Assembly: GCA_030037955.1 (NCBI GenBank)
Contig: JASHPT010000013.1
Coordinates: 1 to 41,937, forward strand
Length of the DNA: 41,937 bases
Reading direction: 5' to 3'
Origin: Thermoplasmata archaeon
GTDB lineage: Archaea > Thermoplasmatota > Thermoplasmata > Lutacidiplasmatales > UBA184
Shown: piece after piece, positions 21,373-33,390 of the stretch
How positions within the stretch are numbered: the first letter of the stretch is position 1
How the letters are laid out: the number at the start of each line of letters is the position of its first letter
The notes under the pieces: model-generated
Seen by the model: only the letters and a program-made list of their open reading frames with translations
Databases searched by the model: none
Told to the model about the DNA's origin: nothing
Made by a program: the position numbers and the translations under genes

Positions 21373-21915
21373 ATGCCGAGAGCGCCCGTGCGCAGGATCA
21401 CCCGCTTCACGGTGATGGCGACACTGCAAGCCGCCCGCGCGCGGCAGCTCGGCCTGGCCCAGGACTCGGCGTATTCCTGGGGGCTCAACCGGGCCATCTT
21501 CTATGCGGCCGCCAAGCGCGGCTTCGGGGGAAGCCGGAGCGCGCCGCCGGAGGGGAGGACCGGGTCGGCGCCGGAACCCGAGAAGAACCTGTATTCGCTC
21601 GGCAACGACGAGGCGTACCGGGACCCGTCGTCCCCGACCCTGCGCTTCACGATCGGCGGGGAGACCCAGACCCCCGAGGCATTCCAGCGTCAGGTCGCCG
21701 CGCGCTTCGGCGACGAAGCCAATTTTGACCGAGCCTGGAAGGAGGCCATGAGCATCATGGAAGGATTCGACGAGCGGACCCTCCGGTCGGGTCGAGACTT
21801 TTACGGAGTGGTCTACAAGCCCCGCCGGGATGCGCTGGTCGCGAAATGGTCCAAGGAGTTCCTTGGTGTCTCGGTCGAGCCTCCGGTCCGGCGGTCAGGG
21901 AGCTCCCGAGCGTAG
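21373..21915 (+). CDS. Small basic protein of unknown function
   Basis: 180 residues with an ATG at 21373, some 40 bases after a TATA-like CGTTATCC. The N-terminal half is Arg-rich and regular: RITRFTVMATLQAARARQLG, then DSAYSWGLNRAIFYAAAKRGFG. The middle is a Gly/Pro/Ser linker and the C-terminal half is helical, ending in DALVAKWSKEF. The dense aromatic and basic pattern in the first half looks conserved and may bind nucleic acid, but I recognise no family. It ends just before the broken amidohydrolase remnant and the AT-rich island. Confidence 0.65.
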   Translation: MPRAPVRRITRFTVMATLQAARARQLGLAQDSAYSWGLNRAIFYAAAKRGFGGSRSAPPEGRTGSAPEPEKNLYSLGNDEAYRDPSSPTLRFTIGGETQTPEAFQRQVAARFGDEANFDRAWKEAMSIMEGFDERTLRSGRDFYGVVYKPRRDALVAKWSKEFLGVSVEPPVRRSGSSRA

Positions 21916-21935
21916 AGCCCGGGAGGCGGAGGCTC

Positions 21936-22083
21936 CTATCCTGAGGGCCCGAGCACACCGGTGGCATCGTCCCGCCAAATGGGTTCGCTGTCCGGGTCGG
22001 AAATCTCCCGAGCCCCGACCATCCCAAGGGACTCGGTCAGGGAGTAGTTGGGCCAGTCGAGGCCGAAGATCAGTTTGCTCTGT
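21936..22083 (-). pseudogene. C-terminal remnant of an amidohydrolase (TIM-barrel metal-dependent hydrolase)
   Basis: About 48 codons in frame on the minus strand, beginning KLIFGLDWPNYSLTESLGM and ending with a DDATGVLG-type tail before TAG at 21936-21938. This is the usual end of amidohydrolase-2-type proteins (I-F-G-D-W-P-N strand, then NAARLLGL-like helix). Just upstream of the Lys codon the frame meets TAA (22084-22086) and composition turns AT-richer, so the gene was broken there. No start codon or barrel metal motif remains. Confidence 0.55.
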
Positions 22084-22166
22084 TAGGCCACCAAAGCTAG
22101 GGCAAGGGCAAGCTTCTCGACGCTCCGCTGACGAGTATGGGCGGCGTACAGGGGGACCGGCTAGAG

Positions 22167-22245
22167 GAGTCCCGCCCACTCGATTCACACATTGGGTCTC
22201 TTGTTGGCGACACTCGCAGATTCCTAGCTGGGAGGAGCGGGACTC
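22167..22245. repeat. 9-bp inverted repeat in a non-coding stretch
   Basis: GAGTCCCGC at 22167-22175 is matched by its reverse complement at 22237-22245. It lies in the 22084-22311 stretch, where I see no gene: short frames here lack any recognisable protein and good promoters. It might form a weak hairpin, but the 61-base loop makes this doubtful. Confidence 0.35.
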
Positions 22246-22311
22246 ACCGAGTCGCTCGTCGCGACAGGCCCCCCCGAATGCTAAAACGCTTCGAGGGCTC
22301 AGCTAAATCTT

Positions 22312-23691
22312 GTGGCCGCTGTTCCTGCGGTACTGATTTTCGTAGTGATTAGCGTGCTAAGCCCGATGGGACACTTCGCCGGCAATACCGAAGCTTCGCC
22401 GGGAGTAGGAGTCGCTCCCGTCGCAGACCCACCGGCAAACAGTTCTGCCGATCCCTCTGCCTTTACAGAACTTGGCCCTTCTAACGTCCTAAGCAACGCT
22501 GTCCTCCCCGGAAACAGGACCGCCGCGGTCTTGGGCAACAGGACGTCTTCGGCCGACCCACACTGGTTCTTTGGAGTGGCAGACGAAAGCACGAATGAAA
22601 CGACAAGCGCGATTTTCTTCAACATAACGACTCCGGAGGGGTTCTCGCAGAGCGATACCGTTTACGCGGCTGCATCGACGTGGGACACTGCAAACGTCTA
22701 CGATCAAGAGGGAATTATCGTAGGCTCTTGGGATGTAACGAACACCAGCGCGCCGTGTTCCGGTAGCAACACTTGGTGCGCCTACTTCAGTACATGCTGG
22801 GGGTCTACGACCAATACTAACTGCACTGCATCATCAGGGGCGTGGTACACCTACGAATACCTCCTCGACCCGAACACAAAGTATGAGGAGGAGATGCAAC
22901 TGGTAGAGCTTGGGCACGGCATCACCCTGTTCAACGGATATCTTTACTACATGGGCCCCAGCAACGCTCATACTCTTCTAGATTCCTTCACCGAGTACCG
23001 CTACGGAGAAATTCAATTCTTCCTCGGCTGGCACTACTGCCTCACGACCTACCCTTCCTGCGTGCCCGAGTATGAGCCAGTGGGTTTTACGGTCTACGAG
23101 GAAATCTATGGCACCAACTCGGTCGAGCCCTTTCCGGCATTTAACTTCCATACCAACATTTCTGTCCCGGCGGGCACTCAGTTCAATTGGGGATGGTTCC
23201 ATGCCGCAGCCGCAGGCTCATCCTACCCTCCGGGGCCTGACTATTCATGCAACCAGAATCAGCGCGTAAACCAGGCGGTCCAGTGCACGTACAGCTTTAG
23301 CGGCGGCAGAGAGTCGATAAATATCGATAACCTACCATATCAAGTCTGGCTTGGGAATCCTTTCGGCGCAAACATGTACTACGTGGAGGTGGTCTGCGCT
23401 GAGTGTTCGTTCTCGTTCGGAGTTTCCATGGATCCGTTGGCAGACCTCACCGGCGGCATCCCGGTTTCGTATTACTACAATTACTGCACCCTGCCCTGCT
23501 CGGATGTAACTTTCAGTCCGTCTTTCTCTACCGTTCAATCTCCCGGTTCGGGGCCGAACGGCTACTTCGACGTGAGCGCATCTTGGCCTGGGGTGAACTC
23601 GTACGTAATGAGTCTCTACGCTGAGGACGAGAATGCAACCAATGGGCCTATCTACTTCATCAGCCAGTATGTCCTCGTCGTCTCGATGTAA
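22312..23691 (+). CDS. Exported Cys- and Asn-rich protein of unknown function
   Basis: 459 residues beginning with a hydrophobic segment (3-20) that looks like a signal peptide or anchor. A long extracellular-type region follows with about a dozen N-X-S/T sequons, many Tyr/Trp/Phe and 14 Cys, several in close pairs (CSGSNTWC, CAECS, CTLPC). This composition fits an S-layer-associated or secreted, disulphide-bonded glycoprotein. I see no catalytic motif. The GTG at 22312 lies about 28 bases after a TATA-like GCTAAAAC (22280-22287), giving a leaderless mRNA. Codon and base use differ from the neighbours, suggesting transfer. Fold unknown; lectin-like or glutamic-peptidase-like beta folds are possible but unproven. 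Confidence 0.7.
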   Translation: MAAVPAVLIFVVISVLSPMGHFAGNTEASPGVGVAPVADPPANSSADPSAFTELGPSNVLSNAVLPGNRTAAVLGNRTSSADPHWFFGVADESTNETTSAIFFNITTPEGFSQSDTVYAAASTWDTANVYDQEGIIVGSWDVTNTSAPCSGSNTWCAYFSTCWGSTTNTNCTASSGAWYTYEYLLDPNTKYEEEMQLVELGHGITLFNGYLYYMGPSNAHTLLDSFTEYRYGEIQFFLGWHYCLTTYPSCVPEYEPVGFTVYEEIYGTNSVEPFPAFNFHTNISVPAGTQFNWGWFHAAAAGSSYPPGPDYSCNQNQRVNQAVQCTYSFSGGRESINIDNLPYQVWLGNPFGANMYYVEVVCAECSFSFGVSMDPLADLTGGIPVSYYYNYCTLPCSDVTFSPSFSTVQSPGSGPNGYFDVSASWPGVNSYVMSLYAEDENATNGPIYFISQYVLVVSM

Positions 23692-23809
23692 CCCGACCCC
23701 CATTGCTAGGGGGTGCCCGATCTAATCTGTCACGCAGCAGAGCTTGGAGGCGAGTACGACCGACGAGGCAGATTGCCGCGCGATCCCCAGCACCCTTCCC
23801 CACAGCGGA

Positions 23810-24355
23810 GTGCCGAAGCGGCGAAAGAGAACCTATGTTGTGCTGGGCCTCGCTGTGGCAGCGGCTGTTGTCGTTTCGCTCACAGTTTACGGGCTTGTCG
23901 GTCTAATGGCGCACCCCAATTCCCATAGTACCGCACCTTGTTGCCTTGCTGGGCTGGGTGCCATTTCAAACGACTCCTCGGGGGACTCGGCTGCCTACGC
24001 CATTGTAGTCCTGGGGGGTTCGCCTGATCCAATGACTAACTTCTCCTTTTCCGCGGCCTTCACGAGTCCCCTCCCGATTGCCTCTGTCTGCGTTGCCTCG
24101 ACCTCCGGCCAAGCGATAGGGACATGGGTGGCGTCCGTTTGGAGCACTAACGGCACGTCGGGGGCGTGTTCCGCGACCGCCCGCACAGCCCCGGCTTCGG
24201 GGTCCATTCTCAGCGACGGCGACCAGCTGTATTTCTACTTCGGATCCGGCGTGCTGGGTGGTGTGCCGGTCGGAACGGCCTTCACAATTTCGGCTTCTGG
24301 CCCCTACGCGGGTGCAGATAGCGAAACACTCGGCCCGTTGTCATCGGACTCTTAG
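23810..24355 (+). CDS. Membrane-anchored extracellular protein of unknown function
   Basis: From the GTG at 23810 the product has 181 residues: a basic start PKRRKRTY, one hydrophobic helix (about 9-33), then a Ser/Thr/Gly/Ala-rich domain with N-X-S/T sites, a CC pair near residue 44 and two later Cys. The basic-then-hydrophobic start recalls archaeal pilin-like or N-anchored surface proteins, but the helix lacks a clear class III cleavage site. A TTG at 23744 would add 22 unlikely residues. It follows the larger exported protein in the same AT-rich island and may work at the same place. No family recognised. Confidence 0.55.
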   Translation: MPKRRKRTYVVLGLAVAAAVVVSLTVYGLVGLMAHPNSHSTAPCCLAGLGAISNDSSGDSAAYAIVVLGGSPDPMTNFSFSAAFTSPLPIASVCVASTSGQAIGTWVASVWSTNGTSGACSATARTAPASGSILSDGDQLYFYFGSGVLGGVPVGTAFTISASGPYAGADSETLGPLSSDS

Positions 24356-24547
24356 CCGCTCCCCATTCAGAGCGCCCTCCACCGCTAGCCTGTATGCGTT
24401 GGCTGTAACTGTCGATTCATGGGCCACGCAATCCCCCCTGACCTGCGGGCTTGACGCGGTACGGAACCACTCGAGGCCGACGCAGTCCACCGACGATGTC
24501 GGTGCGAGAGTTAGCACGGAAGAGTGGGCATCAGGTCGTCTGTGGGA

Positions 24548-26053: not shown

Positions 26054-26839
26054 GTGGTCCCTCCGGGTACGGTCCGCGTCCTCGCCGGCGATGCCCGGAT
26101 GATGCGACGCGTCGACACCGCCTCGGTCGCGCTCGTGGTCACCTCTCCGCCGTACCCCATGATCGCCCAGTGGGACGAGCTGTTCGCGAGCTGGGGAGCG
26201 ACGAGGTTCGACGCGATGCATCGCGAACTGGATCGCGTATGGGCCCAATGCGCCCGGGTCCTGGTCCCGGGGGGTCTCCTGACGGTGAACATCGGCGACG
26301 CCCTGAGGACCGTGGAGGGCGAGTTCCGGCTATGGCCGAACCATGCGCGCGTGACACAGGCGGCCGTCGGCCTCGGGCTGAGTGCCCTCCCGTACATCCT
26401 GTGGAGGAAGCCGACCAACAAGCCGAATGCCTTCCTCGGCTCCGGGTTCCTTCCTCCGAACGCCTACGTGACCCTCGACTGCGAGTTCATCCTCGTGTTT
26501 CGCAAGGGCGGACTCCGTCGCTTCCCGGCCGGCTCCAAGGATCGGCACCGGAGCCAGTATACCAAGGCCGAACGGGACCGGTGGTTCAGCCAGGTCTGGG
26601 ACGGCATCCGCGGTCGTTCGCAGACGCAGCCCGGGGGCCGGACGGCCGCCTTCCCGCCGGAGATCCCGCGGAGGCTGATCCGGATGTTCTCGGTCGTCGG
26701 CGACACGGTGCTGGATCCCTTCGCCGGGACGGGGACGACTCTCTGGGAGGCGTCCAAGCTGGGCCGACACGCGATCGGGGTCGAGCTCGACCCCGCGCGC
26801 GTGCGGGCGCTCCGGCGGGCAGTGGCCGGCCGCCACTAG
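26054..26839 (+). CDS. DNA (cytosine-N4-specific or adenine-N6) methyltransferase, orphan
   Basis: 261 residues. Catalytic motif IV TSPPYPM is near residue 30-36 and the SAM-binding motif I DPFAGTGTT near 223-231. This order (IV before I) is the beta class, and the SPPY form is usual for N4-cytosine enzymes. A target-recognition stretch of about 110 residues lies between. It transfers a methyl group from S-adenosylmethionine to DNA. No restriction endonuclease gene adjoins it, so it is an orphan methylase, perhaps marking self DNA. It sits immediately beside, and convergent with, the type IV secretion-like operon, which may be chance or functional. Confidence 0.87.
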   Translation: MVPPGTVRVLAGDARMMRRVDTASVALVVTSPPYPMIAQWDELFASWGATRFDAMHRELDRVWAQCARVLVPGGLLTVNIGDALRTVEGEFRLWPNHARVTQAAVGLGLSALPYILWRKPTNKPNAFLGSGFLPPNAYVTLDCEFILVFRKGGLRRFPAGSKDRHRSQYTKAERDRWFSQVWDGIRGRSQTQPGGRTAAFPPEIPRRLIRMFSVVGDTVLDPFAGTGTTLWEASKLGRHAIGVELDPARVRALRRAVAGRH

Positions 26840-26849
26840 GCCGCCGGGC

Positions 26850-27365
26850 CTAGAGCTTGCGGTGCCCGACCTCTTCCTCGACGGCCCGCTGAAGGTACTT
26901 GAGGGAGGCGTCCGAGAGCCGGTCCATGTGGAGCAACAGATAGTGGAGATAGATCCGCTCCGGACGGCGGGATGGGCCGGGAGTGTGGGGGCGCGTCCCC
27001 GGGGTCGGGGGCTCGGGGCTGGGGCCCATCTCGTCGAGCGTCGGCTGGTGGTGCTCGTGCGCGGTCCCGTGGAAGCTTCGACCGGTCTCGCCCACCAGCG
27101 GTGGGTGGATCCGGGCCACCGGGTCGTCGACCCACTGCGCATCCCCATCGTCCTCGGAGATCGTCGCGGTCGACGCCGCCAGCTTCGGAGCCCCCGGGCT
27201 CGCCGGGGGAGGGACGGCCTTGAGAAAGGGATGGGCCGGGCGGTCGGGGTCCTGCATGTCCTCGATGGAGCGTCCGGTGACGTCCTCGACGATGTGCCGG
27301 AGGTTCCAGGAGTCACGCCGACGGCGTGCCGGCCCCTCCTGAGTCGCCGGGGCGATCTCCGCCAT
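26850..27365 (-). CDS. Pro-rich protein of unknown function, last gene of the secretion-like operon
   Basis: 171 residues. The N-terminal third has a short helical part NLRHIVEDVTGRSIEDMQ, the middle is Pro/Ser/Gly/Thr-rich and probably disordered, and the C terminus is a compact helical region LHYLLLHMDRLSDASLKYLQRAVEEE. It resembles an adaptor with a flexible linker. The ATG at 27365 overlaps the end of the VirB4-like gene by 53 bases; a later ATG within the helical part would shorten the overlap. Its place at the end of the operon suggests a cytoplasmic partner of the ATPase. No family recognised. Confidence 0.6.
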   Translation of the reverse strand: MAEIAPATQEGPARRRRDSWNLRHIVEDVTGRSIEDMQDPDRPAHPFLKAVPPPASPGAPKLAASTATISEDDGDAQWVDDPVARIHPPLVGETGRSFHGTAHEHHQPTLDEMGPSPEPPTPGTRPHTPGPSRRPERIYLHYLLLHMDRLSDASLKYLQRAVEEEVGHRKL

Positions 27366-29085
27366 CGAGGGGAGCCTCCCGGGCCGGCGGACTTAAACGT
27401 GCCGTTCGAGCCGAACTGGGGTCCGCGTCGGGTCGGTCCGTAGCCTCCCCCCGGGTCCCTTGCAGACACTCGTATTCCGGCGTGGTCGCCACGACGGCCA
27501 GCGGGAGGTGCTGCGGGCCGAATCGCAACAGCCCCTCCGAGTAGCCGGCCTCCGCGGGAAGGCGGGCGTTCGGAAGCCAGCCGGCCTCGGCGGCCGTGAG
27601 GCGGAAGAACTCGCAGGCCTGCGAGGATACCTCGTTCAACCGCAAGAGCAGGGTGGCGCGCAGGTTCCGAAGCAGCGACCGCCCCGGGGCCGTCGCAAGG
27701 AAGTCGTCCGGGCTCTGGCTCAGGACCAGCACCCCTGCCCGGTAATGCCGGACGTGCCGGACCAGCTGGTCGAAGAACTCCAGGGTCGCAGGGTGCCGTG
27801 TGAGGTAGTGCGCCTCGTCGATGACGACGAGCTTGGGACGGTCATCCGCCCGGAGCCGAGCCATGAGGGCGTCCAGCGCATAGGTCAGGTGGAACGGAAG
27901 CTGCTCGACCGGGACGTCGTGAAGGTCGAGGTCGAGCGGCGACCCGTCGAGCGCCACCGTTGTGGGCCCATCCAGATACCGAAGGGATCCCGCCGAGAAG
28001 ACCGTAAGGAGATCCTGGAGCCGGTCCTCACCGGGTCGGCCGCCGAGCTCCTGGATCAGGTCCGACCACTCGGGTACCGGCGCCCGACCGCGATAGAGTC
28101 GGCTCACCGCGGTGTCGAGCCGGGAGGCTTCCGCGTCGGAGAGACTGGGGAAGAGTGCCCGGAGCATGGTGCCGACCCGGGCGGCCTTCGCCTCGCGGTC
28201 CCCGCCGGTCGAAATGGGGTCGAGCGGGTTGAGATGGCCAGAGCCCCGGGCCCCCAGGTCGAGGACGACGCCCCCGAGTCGTCGTGTGAGGCTCGCGAAC
28301 TCTCCCAGGGGGTCGACAAAGAACACCTGGGTATCGGGCTCGGTCCAGCGGGAGCGAAGGGACCACAGAGCGGCGGCGAAGGACTTTCCGGAACCGGTGC
28401 CTCCAAAGAGACCCCACGACTGGCTGCTGTGGGACCATCGGTCGAGGAAGATCGGATTGGCGTCGGCCAGCAGGAGTCCGACCAGGATCCCATGCGGCTC
28501 GTGGATTCCCTCATCCACGAAGGGAAACAGGGCGGACACCGCGTCGGTGGGCAGGGTGTGCCAGTATCCCGTCGGCCGGGGGCCGCGGTCCGGCAGCGGA
28601 GGATCCCGCGGCAACAACCCGATCTCGAAGGTCGGGATCCGGCACCGGAAGCCGAGCTCGTTCAGCCGGTGCACCAGTTTCCGCCGGAGCTGTTCCGCCC
28701 GGGCCCGCCCGTTGGCGTAGGCGTGAAAACTGATCCCCGTGGTCCAGAGGTCCTGGTCCCGGGCGGCGACCCGGGCGGCGAGGTCGCGGGCGCTCTCGGC
28801 GTCGTGCGCCAGTTCGGACGGGCGTGCACCCGGGCGGTTCACCCGGGTCTCGAGGTCGGCCTCGGCGGTGGCCGCCGCCTTCTCGGCGAGGCTGAGGGCC
28901 TCTCCCCGAGGCAGCCGATGGAGCGTGACCTGGAGCTCGGCGGCTTCGGACGTCGGAAGCACGGTCCCCAGGAATCCGAAGGGGACGGCCGCCGGGAGGT
29001 CGGTCACGAGGACCGGCGCATCGACGCGGGTCCCGAGAGAGGCCCAGCTCCGGCCCTCCGACAAGCGCTCCGAGGTCCCGGGCAT
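27313..29085 (-). CDS. virB4: VirB4/HerA-like secretion ATPase
   Basis: 590 residues. The N-terminal domain (about 1-200) is variable and beta-rich as in VirB4/TraC proteins. The RecA-like motor has Walker A GGTGSGKS (228-235), a VFFVDPLGEF strand, Walker B LVVIDEAH (419-426) and a sensor-like VLVLSQSPDD. The family's HLNPLDP segment is also present. VirB4/CedB ATPases power pilus assembly or DNA movement at the membrane. The C-terminal tail of about 60 residues is Pro/Arg-rich. It follows a four-helix membrane gene by one base (29087 to 29085), so co-translation is likely. No VirD4 or relaxase is nearby. Confidence 0.88.
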   Translation of the reverse strand: MPGTSERLSEGRSWASLGTRVDAPVLVTDLPAAVPFGFLGTVLPTSEAAELQVTLHRLPRGEALSLAEKAAATAEADLETRVNRPGARPSELAHDAESARDLAARVAARDQDLWTTGISFHAYANGRARAEQLRRKLVHRLNELGFRCRIPTFEIGLLPRDPPLPDRGPRPTGYWHTLPTDAVSALFPFVDEGIHEPHGILVGLLLADANPIFLDRWSHSSQSWGLFGGTGSGKSFAAALWSLRSRWTEPDTQVFFVDPLGEFASLTRRLGGVVLDLGARGSGHLNPLDPISTGGDREAKAARVGTMLRALFPSLSDAEASRLDTAVSRLYRGRAPVPEWSDLIQELGGRPGEDRLQDLLTVFSAGSLRYLDGPTTVALDGSPLDLDLHDVPVEQLPFHLTYALDALMARLRADDRPKLVVIDEAHYLTRHPATLEFFDQLVRHVRHYRAGVLVLSQSPDDFLATAPGRSLLRNLRATLLLRLNEVSSQACEFFRLTAAEAGWLPNARLPAEAGYSEGLLRFGPQHLPLAVVATTPEYECLQGTRGEATDRPDADPSSARTARLSPPAREAPLDGGDRPGDSGGAGTPSA

Positions 29086-29086
29086 G

Positions 29087-29446
29087 TCAGTGGAGCACCC
29101 CCGCGACTCGGGAGAGTGGCCAGAGACTCACCGCCAGCGCCATCATGGACCACACCGCGCTCGAGGGGACGATCGCCTCCGCCACGCCGGCACCGAGCCA
29201 GCCGGCCAGTCCCACGGCCGCCAGCGGCCAGAGCCGCCGAGCCTCGTACCCGGTGGACCGCCGGGTCCGGAACATCCGAACGGCCCGCATCCAGACGATG
29301 ACGGTCGCCAGCACCGAGAGGCACAGGACGGCGCCCCGGAGCGGAGGCCACGCGAGGGTCCCGGCGGTCGCGAGGACGGCACCGACCACTGAGGCCGGGA
29401 GCGGGTCGACATCTCCCGGTCCGCCCGCCGGAAGCTGGCCGCTCAT
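29087..29446 (-). CDS. Small polytopic membrane protein of the secretion-like operon
   Basis: 119 residues with four hydrophobic segments: about 17-34, 37-54, 70-87 and 92-112. A basic loop MRAVRMFRTRRSTGYEARR lies between the second and third. No family is evident. Its ATG overlaps the stop of the PrgI-like gene (ATGA at 29443-29446) and its stop is followed one base later by the VirB4 start, so it is embedded in the operon. By position it may be part of the inner-membrane complex (a VirB3/VirB8-like place), but the sequence itself does not show this. Confidence 0.7.
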   Translation of the reverse strand: MSGQLPAGGPGDVDPLPASVVGAVLATAGTLAWPPLRGAVLCLSVLATVIVWMRAVRMFRTRRSTGYEARRLWPLAAVGLAGWLGAGVAEAIVPSSAVWSMMALAVSLWPLSRVAGVLH

Positions 29447-30162
29447 CGGGACCCCGACCCTCCGATCCGGCCGGCCCGCCGGTCACCGGTGTCGAGGTCC
29501 GCGGGAATGCCGAGCCTCCGGAGAGCGCCGAGCATCTCCTCGGTCGCGTCCTGGGCCTCCGGCCCGCCGGCTCCGAGTTTCAGCTCGACCCGTCGGTGGA
29601 GTCGGGAGGCGAGTAGCAGCCGCACCAGCTCGCGGTAGGAGGTCAACGCCTCCCGATCCGCCGTCCCTATCGGGCGATCGGCCGGCAGGTAGGGGAGCGA
29701 GGAAAAACGCTCGGCGGACACGCGGATGGCTACCGGGCCATCGAGGGCGCTGAGCGCGGCCCGCCATCCGGCGAAGAGACGTTGCAATTCGTCGGGCGGC
29801 AGATATGCGACGGGTACGCCACGGGCCCGGATGCGCCGGTCGGCCGCATCGGGGAGCCCCCGATGTCGCGGCCGTCGCCCCACGGGGTCGCCCAGGGTTG
29901 TGCGCAGACCGTATCGCACGTAGCCGAGGGCGTACTCGTCGAGGGGCTGTCCCTCGACCCGGACGAAGGCGAGGAGCGCGCCGACCCCTAGGAAGGGGAG
30001 CCAGAGCACCGCCGTACTGGCAGCTGCGACAATGGCGCCGACGATCGTCGCGGAGAGGAAGGTCACGAGCCCCCGGCCCGAAGTGAACGGGCCCAGGTGG
30101 AGGCTCCGGTCGGAGAGGGTGAGGAATGGGATCTCGCCAAGGCGGCCGGTGTCCTCGACCAC
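29443..30162 (-). CDS. PrgI/VirB3-like membrane protein with C-terminal soluble domain
   Basis: 239 residues from the GTG at 30162, which has a clear ribosome-binding site (GGAGGAG, about 6 bases upstream). The first 80 residues have the PrgI-family layout: IPFLTLSDRSLHLG before two membrane helices (about 29-66), then FVRVEGQPLDEYALGYVRYG. In Gram-positive conjugation systems PrgI-type proteins fill the VirB3 place beside VirB4. The remaining 150 residues form a soluble domain of unknown type, with SSLPYLPADRPIG and a long helix-rich part. ATGA overlap with the next gene. The longer open frame upstream overlaps the VirB6-like gene and is rejected. Confidence 0.72.
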   Translation of the reverse strand: MVEDTGRLGEIPFLTLSDRSLHLGPFTSGRGLVTFLSATIVGAIVAAASTAVLWLPFLGVGALLAFVRVEGQPLDEYALGYVRYGLRTTLGDPVGRRPRHRGLPDAADRRIRARGVPVAYLPPDELQRLFAGWRAALSALDGPVAIRVSAERFSSLPYLPADRPIGTADREALTSYRELVRLLLASRLHRRVELKLGAGGPEAQDATEEMLGALRRLGIPADLDTGDRRAGRIGGSGSR

Positions 30163-30175
30163 GGCTCCTCCACTC
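30152..30175 (-). promoter_or_regulatory. Shine-Dalgarno site deciding the PrgI-like start
   Basis: On the minus strand GGAGGAG sits about 6 bases before the GTG at 30162, inside the 11-base gap after the VirB6-like stop. This is one of few clear SD sites in the window, as expected for an internal operon gene in an otherwise leaderless genome. Confidence 0.55.
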
Positions 30176-31340
30176 AGGGCCGGGTCCGGGCCGGCGCAGG
30201 CGGCGAAGCGCCGGTCCGGGCGGGATGGCCGGGCACGGGCGGCGTGGCCGGCGTGGGATGCTGAAAGTGTCGAATGAGCTGACGAGAGCCCTGGGCCACG
30301 GCGTGCCCGGCACCGAGAGCGATGCCGCCCGGGAGAGGGGCCTTCCCGAACTGATTGGCGACCGACCGGACCGCCGACCCGACTTGAGCGGCGCGGCCGG
30401 TCGAGCTCGACGCGGTGGCCAAGGAGTTCGTCGTGCCCTGGGAGGTCAGCGAGGCCACGACCAGGCCGCGCTGGAGCCCGCCCGTGAGGGTAGCCCCGGC
30501 GGACGGGAAGCCCATGCCCCCGAGCTGGGCCCGGGAGAGCGAGACCAGATACGGGGACCCGACGGCGATCGAAAGGTACGCCAGCACGAGAAGGATGGAC
30601 GAGGAGCCGACGGCCAGCTCGAGGGGGACGAGCATCACGGCAGGCACAAAGGCGAGCTCGACCAGGAGGCTCCATCCGCGACGCGCGAGGGCGGCGAACG
30701 GAGGAAGCGCCCACAGGAGCGTGAAGAGCGGGAGCAGGACGACCAGTACGGCGATCATCGCGTCCCGCAGCGCCACCACGGTCGCGAGCGCGAGGACCAT
30801 CGAGAACAGGGCGAAGCTCACGACGAAGGCCAGTACCCCGTTGTCCCACGAGAACACAGCGCCGCCCAGCGGGACCAGATTTCCCCAGTTCCGCCAGGCG
30901 CCTCCGTCGAATCCTGAGAGCAGATGGAATGCGTCGCCGCCGACGTCGAGCAGTGCCGCCAGGATGGGGATGGTGAAGTTCGCGCCCAGTATGGCCACGA
31001 CCAACCGGGGGAGCAGGGACTCCATCCCGACGCCCACCCGGTACGAGAACGACCGGACCAGGTACAGCGCGGCGACGCCGACCAGGACGAGAGCGACACT
31101 GGGGTCCACCAGGTTCGTGACGAGGAAATCGCTGAAGCGAACCGCGACAGCGAGGAAACCCTCGCCCGCGCCCGGATGAGCCAGCGAGGGATACAGCGAG
31201 GGAGCGGACAGCTCGGGAACGACCAGGTTGTTGTACGTGGGCTGGATGATGACGTTCAGGATCGCGGTGCCGGCGGCGAACAGGGCGAACAGGATGGCCT
31301 GTACGATCGCATTCCAGTCAATGGAGTTCCAATCGACCAT
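30174..31340 (-). CDS. VirB6/TrbL-like polytopic membrane protein
   Basis: 388 residues with about seven membrane helices in residues 10-285, a periplasmic-type acidic/aromatic loop around DGGAWRNWGN, and a cytoplasmic tail of about 100 residues rich in Ser, Thr, Gly and Pro. Helices with small residues (VALVLVGVAALYLV and others) and a central helix pair around RDAMIAVLVVLLPLFTLLW resemble VirB6/TrbL and the crenarchaeal CedA channel-like proteins. These form the conduit of type IV secretion or DNA import. It lies 18 bases downstream of the VirB2-like gene. Homology is structural in style rather than motif-based. Confidence 0.75.
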   Translation of the reverse strand: MVDWNSIDWNAIVQAILFALFAAGTAILNVIIQPTYNNLVVPELSAPSLYPSLAHPGAGEGFLAVAVRFSDFLVTNLVDPSVALVLVGVAALYLVRSFSYRVGVGMESLLPRLVVAILGANFTIPILAALLDVGGDAFHLLSGFDGGAWRNWGNLVPLGGAVFSWDNGVLAFVVSFALFSMVLALATVVALRDAMIAVLVVLLPLFTLLWALPPFAALARRGWSLLVELAFVPAVMLVPLELAVGSSSILLVLAYLSIAVGSPYLVSLSRAQLGGMGFPSAGATLTGGLQRGLVVASLTSQGTTNSLATASSSTGRAAQVGSAVRSVANQFGKAPLPGGIALGAGHAVAQGSRQLIRHFQHPTPATPPVPGHPARTGASPPAPARTRP

Positions 31341-31358
31341 GGAGCCCCGCCGTCCCGC

Positions 31359-31739
31359 TCAGGTCCCGGTCACGACCCAGTTGGCGAGTGCCCAGATCAG
31401 ACCGCTGATCGCGCCCACGAAGAGCAGCGTGCCGATGAGCGCGTCCCGGGCCCGCTCCTTCGCCAGGACCTTCTTCATCGAGTCGTGAGAGAACCAGCTC
31501 AGCGCGACGCGGGCCCAGACCAGCGAGAGGAGACCTCCGCCGGCCACCGCCGCTAGGGTCACCAGGCGGCCCACGGCGGCACTAAAGTTGGTCACGGCCG
31601 GGTTCGTGTCCGTCACGCCAGGGAACTCGACATGGCCGAGGGTCGCGGCCGGGAGGCCCGTTCCCGTGATCGAGGTCGACAGCGCGACGAGGACGGCGCC
31701 GGTGACGGTGAGGAAGCGCAGGGAGAGGAGACCGTTCAT
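31359..31739 (-). CDS. VirB2/CedA1-like small membrane protein (pilin candidate)
   Basis: 126 residues. An N-terminal hydrophobic segment (about 6-30) could be a signal peptide. A polar stretch GHVEFPGVTDTNPAVTNFS follows, then two long hydrophobic helices (about 55-83 and 100-123) joined by a short basic loop HDSMKKVLAKERARD. Two hydrophobic helices around a short basic loop is the layout of VirB2/TrbC pilins and of CedA1/TedC. The ATG overlaps the stop of the exported Ig-repeat gene (ATGA). If the signal peptide is removed, a mature pilin of about 95 residues results. Sequence identity to known pilins cannot be claimed. Confidence 0.7.
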   Translation of the reverse strand: MNGLLSLRFLTVTGAVLVALSTSITGTGLPAATLGHVEFPGVTDTNPAVTNFSAAVGRLVTLAAVAGGGLLSLVWARVALSWFSHDSMKKVLAKERARDALIGTLLFVGAISGLIWALANWVVTGT

Positions 31740-33319
31740 GGCGGTGCCTCCGGGCGAGTCGGGCCCCGCCAGCGAAGGACCTGGTCCGAGCCGGGACCGG
31801 CCTCCTCCGTCACGAGCCCCGTCTGGAGGAGCGTCTGCAATGCCGTGGACACCGCGTCGCTGGACTCCCCGGCCTCTTCGCCAAGGAGGAGCAGGGTCTC
31901 CCGGTCGAGGACCTGTTCTCTCTCGAGGATCGAGCGTACCGTCGGCAGGGCCGATGGGGCTCGCGCCGAATCGGGGGCGGCGCGCCGGTGATGCCGCCAC
32001 CGGAACAGGGCCAGCGTCCCCGCGATGGCGACCAGGACACAGAGGGCGACGACGCCCGCCGCCGAGGTCTCGGAGGACCCGGACGACGGATCGGGGGTCC
32101 GGTCGACGAGCACCTGCTGAGTCGCAGTCCAGGAAGCGCCCAGCGCATCGGTCACGTCGATGTGCTCGACGTAGACTCCGGGGGCGCTCGGCTCGAACGC
32201 TTCGCGAAGGATCGTCGGAACGGAGAGCGACCCGTTCGCTTCCTCGCCATCGGAGAGCGTCATCCGATAGGCATAGGGTGGCACCCCCCCGGCCACCCCC
32301 AGCATGACCTCGAATGCGTCGCCGGGACCCGCCGGCCCATCCGTAACGTTCACCCCGAGCGGCGGAACGACCGTGACCACCGTCGTGGCGTTGTCCGGGA
32401 CGCCGAGCCCATCGAGGAGGGACAGGTTCAGGGTCGCGGCACCGGCCTGCAGGAAGGTCAGGTTCCAGGAGTACAGCCCATCGCTCGGGAAAGCGCCCGA
32501 GGAGGCCGTTCCCGGACGTAGGGGGAGCGTGCTCGAGAGCGTCCAGCGGAACGGCGGCGTCCCCGCGGCGACCAGCACGGTCGTCGCGGTGGGGTATCCC
32601 ACCTCCGCCACGAGCGAGGCCGGCATCAGACGGACCAGCCCCGGAGGTACGACCGTTACCGGTGGGAGGTCAACACTGAAGACCGCTCCCAGGGAGTCCA
32701 CCACGTGCGCTTCGACGTAGGCGGGACCCGGGCTTCCGAAGTCGAGGACCTCCGAGTAATTCCCGTCCTGGGACGCGACGAAGCTTCCGGCGCCACCGCC
32801 GTCCGTCGCATTCCAAGTGACGTTCAGCGGGGGGACCCCGCCCTCGACGTGCAAGAACCACGGCACAGGTGTATTCTCCTCGACCTGACCGAAGGCCATG
32901 GTGGCGGCGAGCGAAGGGGGTGGAACGATCTGGATGGAGACGGCGGCTCCTTCGTCCGTCCCGCTCGGCATCTCCACCCGAAGCGTGACGTCGAGGAGAC
33001 CGGGAGCCTCGGGCGTGAAGGTCCAGGTGGGGCCCGTGTGGCCCGTGCCCACGTTGTCCGTCCAGATGCATACGAACGGGACCGGGGCGGGTCCCTCGAC
33101 AAACGCCGACAGCTCCAGCGGGTATCCCACATCGTCGGGGTTGGCCGAGACATGGATGCCGACGTCGAGGCCGCCGGAATCCGGCGCGCTGGCCGCGAAC
33201 GCGCCCGGCGTCCAGAAGAGCAGCAGGCAGAACGGCAGCACCGGGATCAGCACCCAGGCCTTGCGGACGTTCCTCGATCGCCTTCCAGTTCCAAACGCCC
33301 GGTTGGGCCCCGACGGCAT
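31736..33319 (-). CDS. Exported Ig/PKD-like repeat protein with membrane helix and winged-helix-like cytoplasmic tail
   Basis: 527 residues, first gene of the secretion-like operon. A signal peptide (about 20-43, ending FAASA) leads into four to five Ig/PKD-type beta repeats of about 80 residues, marked by recurrent GGVPPL/GTPPF turns and N-X-S/T sites. One membrane helix (423-439) is followed by a basic stop-transfer RWRHHRR and an 80-residue cytoplasmic part. That part has a TVRSILEREQVLDRETLLLL and ALQTLLQTGLVTEE pattern, like a winged-helix domain. The outside part probably binds a surface or DNA partner; the inside part could signal or bind DNA. TATA box at 33351-33358 and ATG at 33319 set the start. 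Confidence 0.75.
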   Translation of the reverse strand: MPSGPNRAFGTGRRSRNVRKAWVLIPVLPFCLLLFWTPGAFAASAPDSGGLDVGIHVSANPDDVGYPLELSAFVEGPAPVPFVCIWTDNVGTGHTGPTWTFTPEAPGLLDVTLRVEMPSGTDEGAAVSIQIVPPPSLAATMAFGQVEENTPVPWFLHVEGGVPPLNVTWNATDGGGAGSFVASQDGNYSEVLDFGSPGPAYVEAHVVDSLGAVFSVDLPPVTVVPPGLVRLMPASLVAEVGYPTATTVLVAAGTPPFRWTLSSTLPLRPGTASSGAFPSDGLYSWNLTFLQAGAATLNLSLLDGLGVPDNATTVVTVVPPLGVNVTDGPAGPGDAFEVMLGVAGGVPPYAYRMTLSDGEEANGSLSVPTILREAFEPSAPGVYVEHIDVTDALGASWTATQQVLVDRTPDPSSGSSETSAAGVVALCVLVAIAGTLALFRWRHHRRAAPDSARAPSALPTVRSILEREQVLDRETLLLLGEEAGESSDAVSTALQTLLQTGLVTEEAGPGSDQVLRWRGPTRPEAPP

Positions 33320-33350
33320 CTGACCACCCCGAGGAAAAACCGGGGGTGGG

Positions 33351-33358
33351 GTATTTTC
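33351..33358 (-). promoter_or_regulatory. TATA box of the secretion-like operon
   Basis: GAAAATAC on the minus strand, in a 71-base gap after the fibrillarin stop, centred about 35 bases before the ATG at 33319. It suggests the seven-gene run has its own promoter rather than depending on ridA-flpA. Confidence 0.55.
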
Positions 33359-33390
33359 GTCCGGGTCGCTCGATGAACGATGAGAGGTGC

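Follow-up and report, generated by a model that had tools for sequence, protein, structure and literature searches.

Two domesticated DNA-transfer systems are known in archaea, Ced and Ted (PMC9905601, PMC11868833). Ted is found in Thermoproteales and comprises TedA, TedB and TedC (PMC9905601), while Ced is found in Sulfolobales and comprises CedA, CedA1, CedA2, CedB, CedD and CedE (PMC11868833). Here we describe a seven-gene operon, g1 to g7, on the minus strand at 26850-33319 of a 41,937-nucleotide stretch (the window) of contig JASHPT010000013.1 from a Thermoplasmata archaeon of the order Lutacidiplasmatales (GCA_030037955.1). Computation identifies pilin, VirB6, VirB3 and VirB4 parts, with the VirB3-VirB4 motor split in two, in a fixed and vertically inherited locus, and finds coupling-type ATPases encoded away from it. 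These components support an earlier note on this DNA, made from the letters alone, which had proposed a Thermoplasmatota type IV secretion system (T4SS) with VirB2-, VirB3-, VirB4- and VirB6-type parts. We hold it somewhat more probable than otherwise that the locus is a domesticated minimal T4SS, most likely moving cellular DNA between cells.

The locus resembles Ted in having a chromosomal VirB2-like pilin with a signal peptide, a VirB6-like channel and a VirB4-type motor, and in lacking a relaxase (PMC9905601). It differs in that no ParA/MinD, HerA or Rad50 genes were recognized within it, the comparison being one of gene content, and in that VirB4 is split with its N-terminal part fused to VirB3/PrgI, three extra genes (g1, g5 and g7) are present and the coupling-type ATPases are unlinked. 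Ced shares the combination of pilin, VirB6-type channel and VirB4-superfamily motor, and its CedB and CedD cover complementary parts of the VirB4 N-terminal domain (PMC11868833). However, both CedB and CedD contain ATPase domains and g4 does not, the match of g6 is to conjugative VirB4 rather than to CedB, the pilin here carries a signal-like helix, and the lineage is a different one.

Among Thermoplasmata, Cuniculiplasma divulgatum has annotated T4SS components (CSP5_1185-1189), with VirB4 (arCOG04034) clustered with multipass membrane proteins and a VirD4-family ATPase elsewhere in the genome (PMC5155288). Cuniculiplasma VirB4 clusters were annotated in 2016 without functional interpretation (PMC5155288), which partly contradicts the earlier statement that no Ced-type system had been described in this lineage. 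The system presented here is another variant of that already known sort, and CSP5_1185-1189 is likely equivalent to the loci treated below. The open-access literature yielded no paper describing a Thermoplasmata system as a domesticated DNA-exchange machine. Further afield, the MPF-FATA derived T4SSs of Patescibacteria are likewise chromosomal and mostly without relaxase, with PrgI, VirB4, VirB6 and VirB2-like pilins that stand in tandem arrays in some, but they are bacterial, have a proposed role in host interaction, and no VirB3-VirB4 fusions were found there (PMC12102498). The conjugative plasmids and integrated conjugative elements (ICEs) of Sulfolobus and Thaumarchaeota have VirB4, VirB6, VirB3 and VirD4/TraG homologues, but these are mobile and carry VirB4 and VirD4 together on the element (PMC6563490).

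The operon and its pilin and channel proteins

All seven minus-strand genes that had been predicted, with ATGA or near-zero spacing, are present at their coordinates:

31736..33319, minus strand: g1, exported surface protein, 527 amino acids (PKD match, transmembrane scan and C-terminal alignment)
31359..31739, minus strand: g2, VirB2/TedC-type T4SS pilin, 126 amino acids (PF18895 in homologues; structure model)
30174..31340, minus strand: g3, VirB6-type channel protein, 388 amino acids (AlphaFold model and PDB fold matches)
29443..30162, minus strand: g4, predicted VirB3/PrgI domain joined to the beginning of the VirB4 N-terminal domain, 239 amino acids (weak PrgI and SCO6880 matches; profile against fused proteins)
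29087..29446, minus strand: g5, small multi-helix membrane protein, 119 amino acids, encoded between the two VirB4 halves
27313..29085, minus strand: g6, VirB4 ATPase with the second part of the N-terminal domain and the motor domain, 590 amino acids (PDB 4ag5; NCBIfam CD1110)
26850..27365, minus strand: g7, soluble Pro-rich protein, 171 amino acids, at the same position in most family loci

An ATGA overlap joins g1 to g2 and likewise g4 to g5; the spacing is 18 nucleotides between g2 and g3, 11 between g3 and g4 and 1 between g5 and g6, g6 and g7 overlap by 53 nucleotides, and the start codon of g4 is GTG. The window has a GC content of 70%, at which long open reading frames (ORFs) are common by chance (86 ORFs in 12 kb), and because spurious long ORFs are so plentiful the reality of the genes was judged by conservation.

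Gene order was compared with relatives over stretches no longer than 19 kb. This comparison, proposed in the earlier note as a check among Thermoplasmatota, shows the order kept in one Lutacidiplasmatales family, in all seven of its genera where VirB4 was found (called genus g1 to genus g7, labels that are separate from the gene names). The three other genus g1 loci examined contain homologues of all seven proteins, in unchanged order; sequence comparison recognizes six of the seven in loci of genera g2 and g4, and the core of pilin, VirB6, PrgI and VirB4 in genera g3, g5, g6 and g7. Genera g1, g2 and g4 also share their flanks, reading RidA, fibrillarin, the operon, methyltransferase and HPS/RraA. 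Across the order VirB4 (g6) was detected in 81 of 101 genomes, and in 31 of the 39 of high quality. Of 390 genomes of the phylum, 64 match the VirB6 profile, and every one of these belongs to a family of the class Thermoplasmata; around nearly all of the matches examined pilin, VirB6 and VirB4 are neighbours in an unchanged order, accompanied by PrgI wherever it could be recognized. The core cassette is also found in complete single-contig genomes of 1,486,778, 1,584,804 and 1,564,906 bp, the first of which carries five pilin-like genes in tandem.

That g2 is a two-helix VirB2-like protein, as first suggested, is upheld by the T4SS_pilin family PF18895, which matches 20 of 31 g2 homologues (best 6.9e-9), the g2 of the window itself being below threshold. 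Its model consists of a signal peptide-like helix followed by two long helices (47-82 and 87-124), and a Foldseek search of this hairpin against the PDB gave nothing significant. In one relative (L076, G133:C1) five tandem pilin-like genes precede VirB6, several of them with long Gly/Trp-rich N-terminal parts.

For g3 the AlphaFold model has a mean predicted local distance difference test score of 79, and its top five PDB fold matches are all TrwI/VirB6 of plasmid R388; the best of them, 7o3v_F, has a probability of 1.00 yet an E of 0.021, and TM-scores are low (0.23-0.38). These TrwI matches support the VirB6 type that had been assigned to g3, while a hydropathy scan gives six helices and not the seven counted earlier. 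The sole PDB profile match is a weak one, of VirB6 profile positions 66-124 to the TrwL (VirB2) pilin (E 0.064). A test for a pilin-like stretch inside the channel, like the CedA1 stretch within CedA, compared the operon's own pilin with its own VirB6 and found no significant match. Other PDB sequence searches with the pilin and VirB6 profiles returned nothing useful, and among the PDB sequences neither profile matches a chain of CedA1 or TedC.

A split VirB3-VirB4 motor and its mobile relatives

The motor domain is encoded by g6, which matches the solved VirB4 structure PDB 4ag5 at 7e-37 across 350 profile positions and the NCBIfam conjugative VirB4 (CD1110 family) at 1.1e-33, and has invariant GSGK and DEA motifs. 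Against CedD it reaches just 9e-8, through a short motif, and CedB (NCBIfam NF041017) was not reported for it at E<=1. By these profile matches the motor is a conjugative FATA-type VirB4, not CedB. The designation VirB4/HerA ATPase given to it earlier survives as VirB4; a HerA-type identity was rejected, with VirB4 models scoring far better.

Taken alone, g4 matches weakly (PrgI, E 0.053; SCO6880, E 0.0053), and its profile aligns with residues ~46-281 of the fused VirB3-VirB4 proteins in mobile elements. Mobile VirB4s of the same family are such fused proteins, of ~870 amino acids, with the g4 profile covering their beginning and the g6 profile what follows, and in family f6 the g4-like and g6-like parts are split ORFs in some genomes and a single fused ORF in others. 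Because the two profiles cover the fused proteins in turn and f6 has both forms, g4 and g6 together make up, on this sequence reading, a single VirB3-VirB4 that is divided inside the N-terminal domain of VirB4, with g5 encoded between the pieces. The earlier description of g4 as a PrgI/VirB3-like protein is then right for the domain and incomplete for the gene, since the C-terminal half of g4 is the missing start of VirB4. Every locus of the family that was examined, and two loci from a different family, have a small membrane ORF where g5 lies; g5 itself is fast-evolving and hardly recognizable by sequence beyond its genus. In the Archaeoglobi loci L068 and L069 a g4-like protein, VirB4 and a VirD4-like ATPase follow in succession.

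The family's fixed copies group as a single clade in the VirB4 tree with 100/100 support and are broadly resolved by genus, and monophyly likewise holds for each of families f5, f6 and f13. A different clade (100/99), closer to sequences from bacteria and Archaeoglobi, unites the mobile copies that come from genera g3 and g7; these copies lie mostly on short contigs, and most adjoin a TraG/TrwB-type coupling protein of ~1,150 amino acids. Between these two genera the mobile copies are 74-84% identical whereas the fixed copies are only 59% identical, as expected if mobile copies cross genera. Five loci of the same genera (L043, L044, L051, L094 and L095) have fused VirB3-VirB4, usually with VirB6-like and ~1,150-residue coupling proteins, and are probably undescribed conjugative elements of Lutacidiplasmatales.

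The operon looks domesticated rather than mobile because its order and flanks are conserved, the VirB4 tree follows the host families and the mobile copies form a clade of their own. The homology of its parts to conjugation machinery could also be read as the mark of an ICE or a decaying remnant of one, the more so as an archaeal ICE has been reported from Aciduliprofundum boonei (PMC3158045) and mobile elements with VirB4 and coupling protein exist in genera g3 and g7. Yet the operon has the same neighbours in three genera and a VirB4 whose tree is host-like and separate from the mobile clade, both at odds with the mobility of an ICE, its conservation is long-term, and it has no relaxase or linked coupling protein, so that this origin is strongly disfavoured and, in our estimate, very improbable.

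Coupling-type ATPases and the proposed transfer of DNA

The earlier note had reported neither coupling protein nor relaxase and from this had suggested import. Family-library scans of the locus proteins confirm that no coupling protein is encoded within the locus, but for the genome the claim fails: another contig (G000:C165:20234-22504) encodes a TrwB/TraG-like ATPase at E 1.6e-160 in the family A7 alignment, and its TrwB_AAD_bind match exceeds the cut-off. The search for TrwB/TraG-like ATPases was positive in 91 of the 101 genomes of the order, a count that includes some genomes where only a second, more distant ATPase family matched, and TraG-D_C (PF12696) matches lie away from the cluster in many relatives. 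A genome-wide lack of coupling protein was initially backed by PF02534 (1 of 61 over the cut-off) and was overturned by PF12696 and the family A7 alignment. In its own surroundings the G000:C165 ATPase (L129) adjoins KaiC-like ATPase genes, an arrangement that recurs in several relatives.

In G040 and G054 a second coupling-type ATPase adjoins the cluster, convergent with g7; in G014 and G028 it lies ~30 kb off, and in G028 this is ~4-7 kb past the point matching the window's left end. L133 and L134 have, near this ATPase, another PKD-type surface protein that is related to g1. In family f13 and Archaeoglobi an ATPase of coupling type or FtsK/HerA type directly follows virB4, and that of Archaeoglobi matches TrwB and VirD4 models. 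Since many PF10412 matches span just a short P-loop stretch, co-occurrence was not judged from the class-wide tabulation of TrwB and VirB6. As to the relaxase, its reported absence agrees with a search confined to the MobP type (PF03432), which found none in 28 genomes; this says little, because archaeal conjugative elements have no known relaxases in any case (PMC9905601, PMC3158045).

The import inference thus loses its footing, as it rested on a coupling protein that is present elsewhere and on a missing relaxase that is uninformative in archaea. A Ced-like dedicated importer, in which a recipient would take DNA through the VirB6 channel with VirB4 as import motor and with no coupling protein or donor function, is consistent with the minimal VirB2, VirB4 and VirB6 types shared with Ced and Ted (PMC9905601), with the chromosomal, vertically inherited locus and with the lack of a relaxase and of a coupling protein inside it. 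We nevertheless consider it unlikely, given the TrwB/TraG-like ATPases in this and 90 other genomes of the order, their place beside the cluster in G040 and G054, the ATPase directly after virB4 in Archaeoglobi and f13, and a VirB4 of conjugative FATA type rather than CedB. A putative cellular DNA-exchange machine, with ATPases that would act in trans, fits better than a pure importer.

The surface protein g1 has an N-terminal signal or transmembrane segment (~18-36), a PKD/Ig-like ectodomain, a transmembrane segment (~421-439) and a short cytoplasmic C-terminal domain, as given by the transmembrane scan; its PKD match (E 6.6e-4) is under the family cut-off. In the cytoplasmic domain we read a putative winged-helix-like pattern from an alignment of 14 loci. 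It also weakly matches PamR, a pilus protein of the candidate phyla radiation (CPR), for which the open-access search found no literature. The Pro-rich g7 has no match in family-library scans.

The large PKD-type ectodomain of g1 and its PamR match are among the observations that favor the main rival, namely that the pilus or secretion apparatus serves to attach to other cells or to deliver protein to them and does not have DNA as its substrate. Its models are the relaxase-less chromosomal T4SSs of Patescibacteria, which have VirB2-like pilins and tandem arrays and are proposed to be non-conjugative (PMC12102498), and the tandem pilin-like array of L076 is in line with them. The coupling ATPases are of the DNA-type TrwB/TraG family, which argues the other way, though such proteins can also recruit protein substrates; nor was any effector-like gene noticed beside the cluster, with no search aimed at effectors made. 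On balance we find this rival doubtful.

We return to the preferred reading, that of a DNA-exchange machine. If its parts work together with DNA as their substrate, pilin g2 and VirB6 g3 would form the pilus and membrane conduit, powered by the VirB4 that is split into g4 and g6 with membrane protein g5 encoded between, and g1 may recognize or hold partner cells and signal inward via its cytoplasmic tail; roles in the machine are likewise supposed for g5 and g7. Cellular DNA would be moved between cells of one or related species. The unlinked TrwB/TraG-like ATPases may serve this T4SS by feeding DNA into it, and since these genomes encode them at other loci, the cells may act as donors in addition to taking up DNA. 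Several points weigh against such a machine. There is no DNA-handling gene inside the operon, and the conserved methyltransferase and fibrillarin neighbours may be bystanders; several f6 genomes, three of them single-contig, have VirB6 and no TrwB match; and relaxase-less T4SSs also move proteins or serve attachment (PMC3158045, PMC12102498). A broader proposal, to which we give rather less than even weight, is a domestication apart from Ced and Ted and present in much of the class Thermoplasmata, in which chromosomal DNA would be exchanged by a split VirB3-VirB4 with its own surface receptor and with ATPases from other loci, between dedicated plasmid-free donors and recipients.

Flanking features and biological meaning

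Upstream of g1, on the same strand and 71 nucleotides away, lies fibrillarin. The features that border the operon are:

33320..33390, minus strand: 71-nucleotide gap between fibrillarin and g1, with AT-rich gaaaatac at 33351-33358, a candidate promoter from reading of the sequence
26054-26839, plus strand: DNA methyltransferase-like gene with a TSPPY motif, convergent with g7 and ending 10 nucleotides from it

Elsewhere in the window, a stretch at 21500-24400 has a low GC content (0.57 against 0.70 in its surroundings) and holds two ORFs for exported proteins, at 22312-23691 and 23744-24355, both on the plus strand.

Beltran et al. state that they knew of no report, apart from Ced and Ted, of a conjugation apparatus domesticated for DNA transfer (PMC9905601). 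A vertically inherited counterpart in Thermoplasmata, if true, would mean that such domestication arose in a further major branch of the archaea or reached it by spreading, and it would provide a means of chromosomal exchange for soil archaea that are known from metagenomes alone. The fixed locus and the mobile elements of one family would then form a natural pair for studying how such a machine is captured, and the idea could be tested in the culturable relatives Thermoplasma, Cuniculiplasma and Aciduliprofundum.

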